Assembly: GCA_008501705.1 (NCBI GenBank)
Contig: QQUG01000018.1
Span: 1 to 59,699, forward strand
Direction of reading: 5' to 3'
Length of the DNA: 59,699 nt
Origin: Flavobacterium sp.
GTDB taxonomy: Bacteria > Bacteroidota > Bacteroidia > Flavobacteriales > Flavobacteriaceae
Positions 26,831 through 29,737 of this stretch are shown here, one piece after another (within the stretch, counting starts at the first letter, position 1; each line of letters starts with the position of its first letter). Both the position numbers and the translations under genes were made by a program. The notes under the pieces were generated by a model. The model saw only the letters and a list, made by a program, of their open reading frames with translations, searched no databases and was not told the origin of the DNA.

Positions 26831-27286
26831 ATGGACACATTAAGTTACAAAACAGTATCTGCTAACAAGAACACTGTAAATAAGGAGTGGTTGTTGGTTG
26901 ATGCGGACGGGCAAGCATTGGGTCGTCTTGCGAGCGAAGTCGCTAAATTACTTCGCGGAAAACACAAGCCAAATTTCACACCTCATGTGGATTGCGGTGA
27001 CAATGTTATTATTATCAATGCTGAAAAGATTAATCTTAGTGGTAACAAGTGGGAACAGAAAACGTATATCCGTCACACCGGATATCCAGGAGGACAGCGC
27101 AGTTTAACTGCCAGTGAGCTCTTCCGAAAAGATCCTACCCGTGTTGTAGAAAAAGCTGTAAAAGGAATGCTTCCGAAGAATAAATTGGGAGCCGAACTTT
27201 TCAGAAACCTGAAAGTGTATGCCGGAACAGAGCATGGCCAGGAAGCACAGAAACCTAAAACCATTAACCTTAACGACAAGAAGTAA
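26831..27286 (+). CDS. rplM: 50S ribosomal protein L13
   Basis: [46 protein letters not shown]. Confidence 0.98.
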
Positions 27287-27288
27287 GC

Positions 27289-27675
27289 ATGGAGACTATT
27301 CATAAAATAGGAAGAAGAAAAACCGCAGTTGCACGTGTATACCTGACAGAAGGAAAGGGTAATATTACCGTGAACAAACGCGACATGGATAAATACTTCA
27401 CTACTGCTACTTTACAGTACAAAGTGAAGCAACCACTTGCCTTAACTAATAATGTGGATAATTTCGACATTAATGTTAATGTATTTGGTGGTGGAATCAC
27501 AGGGCAGGCAGAAGCTGTTAGACTAGCTTTATCCAGAGCCATGTGTGAACTAGATGAGGAAAACAGAAGTATCTTAAAGCCAGAAGGTCTATTAACAAGA
27601 GACCCGAGAATGGTGGAGCGTAAGAAATTCGGACAGAAGAAAGCGCGTAAGAAATTCCAGTTCTCTAAACGTTAA
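27289..27675 (+). CDS. rpsI: 30S ribosomal protein S9
   Basis: GRRKTAVARVYL...GLLTRDPRMVERKKFGQKKARKKFQFSKR. Confidence 0.98.
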   Translation: METIHKIGRRKTAVARVYLTEGKGNITVNKRDMDKYFTTATLQYKVKQPLALTNNVDNFDINVNVFGGGITGQAEAVRLALSRAMCELDEENRSILKPEGLLTRDPRMVERKKFGQKKARKKFQFSKR

Positions 27676-27681
27676 AATTTT

Positions 27682-27816
27682 CAACCTGTTCGGGTATTTC
27701 TTATGGAGTGCCCGAACAAGGTTATAAGTTCATATTTTATTATTAAGCTGTTATTCCCGCCTGCCGGTGGGATGTTAGTTTAGCATCTAAACCTAAGTCG
27801 AAAATCGAACAGGTTG
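27682..27816 (+). promoter_or_regulatory. Structured leader of rpsB-tsf with alternative pairings
   Basis: Three hairpins (27683-27723, 27755-27772, 27775-27796) plus CAACCTGTTCG (27682-27692), the exact reverse complement of CGAACAGGTTG (27806-27816). Confidence 0.6.
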
Positions 27817-27847
27817 CTATCTAAACAGGAACGTAAACTAAAACAAA

Positions 27848-28630
27848 ATGGCAAACAACAAAGAAGTCAAAGAATTACTTGACGCTGGTGTACACTTTGG
27901 ACACCTAACCCGAAAATGGAATCCTAACATGGCCCCGTATATCTATATGGAGCGTAACGGGATCCACATCCTAAACCTTTACAAAACAGCTGCTAAGCTT
28001 GAAGAAGCTAGTGAAGCTATGAAAAAGATCGCTGCCAGCGGCCGTAAGATCCTTTTCGTTGCTACAAAAAAGCAAGCAAAAGACATCGTGGCAGAAAAAG
28101 CGAGTAACGCTAACATGCCTTATATCACAGAAAGATGGCCTGGTGGAATGCTTACAAACTTTGTAACCATTAGAAAGGCTGTGAAGAAAATGGCGATGAT
28201 CGATCGCATGAAGCAGGATGGAACGTTCAATACGCTATCTAAGAAAGAGCGATTAGCAGTAGACCGTACTCGTGCGAAGCTGGAAAAGAACTTAGGTTCT
28301 ATCAGTGACATGAGCCGTTTACCAGGTGCATTATTCATCGTGGACACTACACGCGAACACATTGCTGTAAAAGAGGCTCAGAAACTAAACATTCCTATTT
28401 TCGCCATGGTAGATACAAACAGTGATCCTCGTGAGATCGATTTTGTGATTCCTTCCAATGACGATGCTTCTAAGTCGATAGATAAAATAGTTTCCAGAGT
28501 ATCGGAAGCGATTATTGATGGCCTTGCAGAACGCAAGAACGGAAAAGCCGCTGAAGGTGATGAGCCAAAAGCTGCCGCTCCTGCCAAGGCTAAAGCAAAA
28601 GCTGTCGCTGCCGGCGAAGAAGAAGAATAA
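27848..28630 (+). CDS. rpsB: 30S ribosomal protein S2
   Basis: LLDAGVHFGHLTRKWNPNMAPYIYMERNGIHILNL; PGALFIVDTTREHIAVKEAQKLNIPIFAMVDTNSDP. Confidence 0.98.
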   Translation: MANNKEVKELLDAGVHFGHLTRKWNPNMAPYIYMERNGIHILNLYKTAAKLEEASEAMKKIAASGRKILFVATKKQAKDIVAEKASNANMPYITERWPGGMLTNFVTIRKAVKKMAMIDRMKQDGTFNTLSKKERLAVDRTRAKLEKNLGSISDMSRLPGALFIVDTTREHIAVKEAQKLNIPIFAMVDTNSDPREIDFVIPSNDDASKSIDKIVSRVSEAIIDGLAERKNGKAAEGDEPKAAAPAKAKAKAVAAGEEEE

Positions 28631-28713: not shown

Positions 28714-29685
28714 ATGGAAATGGTTAAGATTACCGCCGCAATGGTAAACGAATTGAGACAAAAAACCGGAGCCGGAATGATGGACTGTAAAAAGGCATTG
28801 GTCGAGGCAGAAGGTGATTTTGATAAAGCAATTGAGATCCTTAGAAAAAAAGGACAGAAAATCGCAGAAAAAAGAGCCGATCGTGATTCTAGTGAAGGTG
28901 CTGTTATTGCGAAGGTAAACGACAGTAACACTAAAGGTGCTATTGTATCTCTGAACTGTGAGACCGACTTCGTTGCCAAGAATGATGATTATGTGGCAAT
29001 GGCACATAAAATGGCAGAGATCGCACTGGGAACTTCTTCTAAAGAAGAGTTCATGGCTGCAGACTTCGACGGGATGACTGTGGAAGAAAAACTTACCGAG
29101 CAAACCGGTGTCATTGGAGAAAAAATTGAGATCGGGGCGTATAAAACCCTTGAAGCTCCTTATGTTGGATCGTACATTCACGGTAATAAGATCGCCGCTA
29201 TGGTAGGACTTTCTGCCAAGGTTGACAATGTGGATGTTTTAGCGAAGGACCTTGCTATGCAAATTGCATCTATGGGTGCCACTACATTATCTTACAAAGA
29301 TTTCGATGCAGCCTATATCGCTTCAGAAACAGAAGCTCGCATAGCAGTGATCGAAAAGGATAATATCGAATTAGGTCGTTTAGGTAAAACTTTAAAAAAT
29401 GTTCCTAAATATATCTCCAGAGCACAACTTACCGATGAGGTACTTGCACAGGCCGAGGCAGATATCAAGGCAGAATTGATTGCTGAAGGAAAACCCGAAC
29501 AGATCCTGGACAGGATCGTACCTGGAAAACTGGAGCGATTCATCGCCGATAATACTACTCTGGATCAGGAGCAATGTCTGCTTGACCAGAATTTTATCAA
29601 AGATGAAAAGCAATCTGTTGCCGAGTATGTGAAAACCTATGGGGACGTTGAAGTAGTTAACTTCGAACGTGTTTCTCTGTCTTAA
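28714..29685 (+). CDS. tsf: Elongation factor Ts
   Basis: LRQKTGAGMMDCKKALVEAEGDFDKAIEILRKKGQ. Confidence 0.98.
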   Translation: MEMVKITAAMVNELRQKTGAGMMDCKKALVEAEGDFDKAIEILRKKGQKIAEKRADRDSSEGAVIAKVNDSNTKGAIVSLNCETDFVAKNDDYVAMAHKMAEIALGTSSKEEFMAADFDGMTVEEKLTEQTGVIGEKIEIGAYKTLEAPYVGSYIHGNKIAAMVGLSAKVDNVDVLAKDLAMQIASMGATTLSYKDFDAAYIASETEARIAVIEKDNIELGRLGKTLKNVPKYISRAQLTDEVLAQAEADIKAELIAEGKPEQILDRIVPGKLERFIADNTTLDQEQCLLDQNFIKDEKQSVAEYVKTYGDVEVVNFERVSLS

Positions 29686-29701: not shown

Positions 29702-29737
29702 AAAAAAAGCCGTGATCTTGAAATCACGGCTTTTTTT
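29702..29737. terminator. Bidirectional rho-independent terminator
   Basis: AAAAAAAGCCGTGAT-CTTGAA-ATCACGGCTTTTTTT between convergent tsf and the protease gene. Confidence 0.95.

Follow-up and report, generated by a model that had tools for sequence, protein, structure and literature searches.

A conserved pseudoknotted RNA leader upstream of rpsB in two orders of Bacteroidia, a probable site of uS2 autoregulation

Introduction

In gammaproteobacteria, ribosomal protein uS2 represses its own rpsB-tsf mRNA via a conserved structure in the 5′ UTR, an autoregulation whose mechanistic details, as studied in E. coli, are still described as unclear (PMC10931766). The rpsB motif of Meyer et al. (2009), of which Rfam family RF00127 (t44) is the E. 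coli example, is reported from Alpha- and Gammaproteobacteria, Cyanobacteria and some Firmicutes, and Bacteroidetes are not listed in the text of that paper (PMC2704228). In this motif, helix P1 is capped by a junction with variable P2 and P3, and the segment linking P2 to P3 pairs with the 3′ extension that follows P1, forming a pseudoknot of about five pairs.

Translation initiation in Bacteroidia relies on adenines at −3, −6, −12 and −13 together with low structure, and not on Shine-Dalgarno (SD) pairing (PMC9976891). Lineage-specific ribosomal-protein leaders have been described in these bacteria, including the S4, S15 and S16 leaders of Flavobacteria; these precede other genes, and the table of that paper holds no S2 leader (PMC7247131). 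The L13-Bacteroidia leader (RF03127) belongs to the same Bacteroidia operon as the RNA studied here, that of rplM and rpsI, for which rpsB is listed as downstream (PMC7247131). Autoregulation of Flavobacterium rpsU is likewise a ribosomal-protein feedback in bacteria that ignore SD sequences, but it depends on a strong SD and on ribosomes lacking bS21 and involves no leader structure (PMC9976891). Full-text literature searches, with subscription papers and supplements outside their reach, retrieved no prior description of a Bacteroidia S2 leader; a listing in a supplementary table is possible.

Results and discussion

The rpsI-rpsB gap encodes a structured ribosomal-protein leader

The window, that is, the whole stretch of 59,699 nt of Flavobacterium sp. 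DNA that was analysed, contains the following genes of an apparent operon:

26831..27286, + strand, rplM (uL13), the first gene of the apparent operon (ORF of 151 aa, named from its sequence)
27289..27675, + strand, rpsI (uS9) (ORF of 128 aa)
27848..28630, + strand, rpsB (uS2), the gene preceded by the leader (ORF)
28714..29685, + strand, tsf (EF-Ts), the next gene after rpsB (ORF of 323 aa)

According to these ORFs, the rpsI-rpsB gap spans 27676-27847, with rplM upstream and tsf downstream. A 201-nt stretch here has a better fold than any of 200 dinucleotide shuffles (z = −4.5). The original prediction that the gap holds a structured ribosomal-protein leader is borne out, in that a conserved and covarying structure lies in the 5′ UTR of a ribosomal-protein gene; the gap thus encodes a real RNA structure, although its fold differs from the one drawn at first. 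In the Rfam scan that had been recommended, no family of Rfam 15 matches 27600-27900, even at E ≤ 5, and the rpsB leader apparently represents an RNA family missing from Rfam.

Among the matches listed in a pattern scan of a genome collection, rpsI lies directly upstream of the leader in 116 loci. The spacing from rpsI to the leader junction is only about 9 nt in some relatives, indicating that the leader is transcribed there from rpsI or from further upstream. A scan for sigma-70-like sites, which does not cover Bacteroidetes promoters, found none between rpsI and rpsB.

The leader folds into a two-hairpin junction with a two-segment pseudoknot

The rpsB leader, 27748-27847, is a cis-acting RNA with a conserved fold, consisting of P1, a variable P2, a junction, P3 and a pseudoknot. 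Its elements are:

27748..27752, + strand, P1 5′ strand CUGUU, pairing with 27824-27828 (native pairing exceeds swapped pairing; 0/300 permutations)
27755..27772, + strand, P2, a hairpin of variable length, UCCCGCC-UGCC-GGUGGGA (a hairpin of different sequence in aligned relatives)
27775-27788, + strand, junction J2/3 between P2 and P3
27775..27782, + strand, P0a pseudoknot 5′ strand UUAGUUUA in J2/3, pairing with 27834-27841 (outer pair covaries)
27786..27788, + strand, P0b pseudoknot 5′ strand UCU (UCY in relatives), pairing with 27828-27830 (top covarying column pair between junction and tail)
27790..27815, + strand, P3 hairpin, AACCU...AGGUU plus inner pairs (eight successive compensated pairs; also in alignment A1)
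27824..27828, + strand, P1 3′ strand AACAG (permutation test)
27828..27830, + strand, P0b 3′ strand GGA (covariation; 27828 is common to P1, as an alternative or competing pair)
27834..27841, + strand, P0a 3′ strand UAAACUAA, rpsB positions −14 to −7 (covariation)

Because P1 and P0a cross, the structure is a pseudoknot. The UCY/RGA and GUUUA/UAAAC pairings together form one two-segment helix with a 3×3 internal loop, comprising 8 + 3 bp in the window, where G27828 is available to P1 or to P0b and not to both. rpsB was located in 98 of 100 relatives and its upstream DNA was read for 70 loci (L001-L070), which have a common core order: a variable hairpin, UUAGUUUAGCAUCUAAAY, a second hairpin, UUGCUA, AACAG, GAACGUAAACUA and the start codon.

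Covariation supports P3, P1 and both pseudoknot segments

Covariation was assessed in 178 non-redundant sequences (175 for the P3 counts) and in A1, a MAFFT alignment of 35 sequences made without any use of structure. P3 shows compensatory changes at eight successive pairs among the 175 relatives; its first pair occurs as G-C, A-U, C-G, U-G, G-U and U-A and is paired in 166 of 175. The outer pair of P0a is A-U in 116, U-A in 18, C-G in 6 and G-U in 5 of the 178 sequences and is canonical in 147 of them, compared with 109 on average and 124 at most in shuffles; this test, like the other shuffle and permutation tests used here, corrects only partly for relatedness. By parsimony on a rough tree built from 93 nt of rpsB, the U-A variant was gained about 13 times. 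The P0a core, GUUUA/UAAAC, hardly varies and is silent on pairing.

When all junction and tail columns were compared pairwise, the best column pair was the Y of UCYAAA with the R before GAACG, which belongs to P0b. It is U-A in 109, U-G in 32, C-G in 27 and C-A in 5 sequences, and canonical in 168 of 178 against a shuffle maximum of 160. The pattern scan had fixed parts of both pseudoknot cores and neither of these variable P0a and P0b pairs. In A1, 93.6% of the P0a, P0b and P3 cells are paired, versus 31-50% when the strands are slid, and the covariation score for pseudoknot plus P3 reaches 0.303 versus 0.111 in shuffled alignments, a value attained by 0 of 500 shuffles.

As for P1, the bases immediately preceding the tail pair with a segment that lies about 20-40 nt upstream of the junction, reading CUGUU/AACAG in the window and UUGUUG/CAACAG, UCGUUG/CAACGG, CUGUC/GACAG or CUGUUUU/AAAACAG elsewhere. 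Native P1 partners score 10.3 versus 9.0 (sd 0.26) for swapped ones, a difference reached in 0/300 permutations; P1 is not recognisable in most Bacteroidales loci. That the near-invariant GAACGUAAAC reflects only a sequence constraint on an unstructured, A-rich initiation enhancer, with no RNA structure at all, is hardly tenable given the compensatory changes found in P3, P1, P0a and P0b.

At P3 pairs 7-8, we also observed a conserved AAG/CUU pairing, after which comes a G.A mismatch (65 of 175) or an A.A mismatch (61 of 175); this is a possible protein contact site.

Two proposed switches compared with the covarying fold

The original prediction placed three local hairpins in the gap (27683-27723, 27755-27772 and 27775-27796) and let the 5′ arm of the first alternate with an 11-bp stem closing a multibranch junction around the other two. 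Its sequences and coordinates all agree with the DNA, and each of the three hairpins is able to form; it was right to propose a leader, but the switch as drawn is not supported. The first hairpin lies upstream of the leader core:

27683..27723, + strand, hairpin 1, after the rpsI stop and outside the rpsB leader core (fold of −26 kcal/mol)

CAACCTGTTCG (27682-27692) and CGAACAGGTTG (27806-27816) are indeed exact reverse complements, and 31 nt separate the end of the latter from the rpsB ATG at 27848. Of 1000 Markov simulations of the gap, 0.3% contain an exact inverted repeat of at least 11 nt, so the match is unlikely to be due to chance in this one sequence, though it is not kept in relatives. 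The closing stem is confined to the window and the relatives nearest to it (L001-L004); in three other members of the same genus (L005-L007), at best 8-9 of the 11 pairs form, at unrelated places, and the stem is likewise missing from the other relatives checked. Moreover, the 3′ arm of this stem coincides with the 3′ strand of P3, a strand that covaries strongly. In L002-L004, a C-to-U change in the 5′ arm is compensated inside hairpin 1 and not in the closing-stem partner, indicating that hairpin 1 is the real local helix there. Taken together, despite the exact repeat, an alternation of 27682-27692 between hairpin 1 and a closing stem with 27806-27816 is highly improbable, and it already fails by the standard that the original prediction set for itself.

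The third local hairpin (27775-27796) does not hold up as a conserved element, since an A.C mismatch disrupts its pairing in 36 of 178 relatives (20%), and its two arms are parts of the pseudoknot and of P3. A related possibility is that the GUUUAG arm switches between a local hairpin, UUUAG/CUAAA, in which translation would be on, and the pseudoknot, in which it would be off. The arm is common to both pairings, and at its variable pair the local hairpin could form in 142 of 178 sequences; set against the A.C mismatch in the remainder, and with P3 accounting for the outer-pair variation (a U-A or C-G pair with the base preceding UUG in 156 of 175), such a switch appears distinctly unlikely.

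The leader occurs in Flavobacteriales and Bacteroidales, always before rpsB

Covariance model R1 was built from A1 with P2 and P3 as its only structural input; as R1 carries no long-range helices, P1 and the pseudoknot can be tested without bias. All 37 Flavobacteriales sampled contain an R1 match, as do 4 of 37 class members from outside that order; elsewhere in the phylum, R1 picks up a single weak site. On 25 loci outside the training set, mostly Bacteroidales, it gives one match each, at the leader, in 25 of 25 cases, with E-values nearly all from 1e-13 to 4e-5 and the weakest at 5e-3. The pattern scan yields at least 120 loci, in Flavobacteriales and Bacteroidales, and the named records among the matches listed include Bacteroides, Prevotella, Paraprevotella, Muribaculaceae and many Flavobacteriaceae. 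Six further families of the class, where sampled (L102-L106, L109-L113, L116, L117, L120, L121), show no recognisable rpsB leader, implying that it was lost or replaced there.

The position of the element is exclusive. In 119 of the 120 loci listed, rpsB starts between 2 nt before and 24 nt after the end of GUAAAC; one of the 120 lies at a contig end, and the rule holds in 119 of 119 assessable loci. Among the same matches, the median distance from the 3′ strand of the element to the rpsB start is 10 nt. The window genome has one leader copy. A second model match in the window genome (C27) lies beside a parA-like start, and one in another genome (G186, L118) runs antisense to a coding frame; both were judged to be chance hits.

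The leader shares the architecture and not the sequence of known rpsB leaders

Like the rpsB motif (PMC2704228), the Bacteroidia leader precedes rpsB (in all assessable loci), and J2-3 nucleotides form pseudoknots with the 3′ extension after P1. A P1-closed junction with P2 and P3 is present in Flavobacteriales, whereas P1 went undetected in most Bacteroidales loci. Distinct from the rpsB motif and t44, the Bacteroidia leader has a short or absent P1, and its pseudoknot combines a near-invariant GUUUA/UAAAC core with a second UCY/RGA segment. It also lacks the conserved CACACAUAC...GUAGAGG flanks that characterize the leaders of other classes of the phylum.

The RF00127 covariance model finds no match in the window leader at E ≤ 5; it scores 83.5 bits in E. 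coli and 24-32 bits in five Bacteroidota of other classes, against a cut-off of 44. In the Flavobacteriales tested, model R2, built from canonical rpsB leaders, detects no leader, and the canonical leaders in turn all escape R1. Since the models do not find each other, the leader matches the known family in architecture and not in sequence, and homology to t44 by sequence was rejected for want of cross matches in either direction. Descent from a canonical rpsB leader is plausible. As to the L13-Bacteroidia leader, its model (RF03127) has no match in the window; it is a separate RNA, lying about 1 kb upstream of the rpsB leader in two loci (L160 and L189), and an Rfam search of the Bacteroidales loci returned nothing besides L13-Bacteroidia at rplM.

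Sampled loci from other classes of the phylum (L122-L137) carry canonical-looking, t44-like leaders, CACACAUAC ... GUAGAGGC-AUAACUC, in which the pseudoknot arms change together by eye (L122, CCCU/AGGG; L126, CCUGU/ACAGG; L134, GGGU/ACCC).

The pseudoknot overlaps the rpsB initiation region and may occlude it

The pseudoknot overlaps the initiation region of rpsB, whose positions −13 and −12 correspond to 27835 and 27836, both within P0a. Because P0a covers −14 to −7, occlusion of initiation by an S2-stabilised pseudoknot would be the likeliest mechanism. Specifically, uS2 in excess over free 30S particles would bind the leader RNA, and the bound protein would stabilise the pseudoknot, which in turn would hide the A-rich, SD-less initiation region at −14 to −7; translation of rpsB would then fall, as would that of tsf through coupling. 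Excess S2 thus probably switches off its own production via the leader, where uS2 as ligand, repression as outcome and occlusion as the step between them are inferred. All in all, we consider a uS2-bound leader pseudoknot that occludes rpsB initiation and lowers rpsB and tsf expression to be the best explanation, and a likely one.

The uS2 operator of E. coli excludes the ribosome binding site (PMC10931766), so that occlusion need not be how the Bacteroidia leader acts. F. johnsoniae reporters containing only −25 to +12 of rpsB serve as ordinary SD-less reporters (PMC9976891), which means that the initiation region works without the leader and says nothing about control by it. It is also conceivable, though unlikely, that the ligand is not uS2, being instead EF-Ts, bS1 or an assembly factor, or that the element governs stability or processing of the rplM-rpsI-rpsB-tsf mRNA. 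E. coli uS2 requires bS1 for good repression (PMC10931766), and hairpin 1, which separates rpsI from rpsB, resembles an end or processing element; against this, the leader tracks the rpsB start in every assessable locus, with its 3′ strand typically so close to the start codon, which points to control of initiation of rpsB itself.

Returning to occlusion by a uS2-bound pseudoknot, we tentatively entertain the further possibility that Bacteroidia possess a separate uS2 leader class, re-invented or diverged past recognition, whose two-segment pseudoknot would directly hide the SD-less initiation region. If true, this would amount to a translational off-switch suited to ribosomes that initiate without SD pairing. 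The leader appears to be an uncatalogued RNA family in an essential operon of two large orders, which include Bacteroides and Prevotella, and in it one topology has persisted for the same protein through a rewriting of the sequence. With it, the question of how a leader can shut off translation in bacteria that ignore SD sequences becomes testable, and the overlap of its pseudoknot with the initiation region allows a clean mechanism to be tested in Bacteroidia.

Elements flanking the leader

Within the genus, hairpin 1 keeps its shape and not its sequence, with folds of −14 to −27 kcal/mol in relatives, and the first 60 nt of the gap have z < −2 in about half of 61 loci (L001-L061). Hairpin 1 is perhaps an mRNA end or a processing element; it mostly lacks a T run. 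Between hairpin 1 and P1, the conserved motif AGUUCAU (27727-27733 in the window) recurs in 21 of 61 related gaps versus 1.2 expected. At the other end of the operon, 3′ of tsf at about 29707-29737, GCCGTGATCTTGAAATCACGGC followed by a T run resembles the terminator of the operon by eye and is absent from the list produced by the scan that had looked for sigma-70-like sites.
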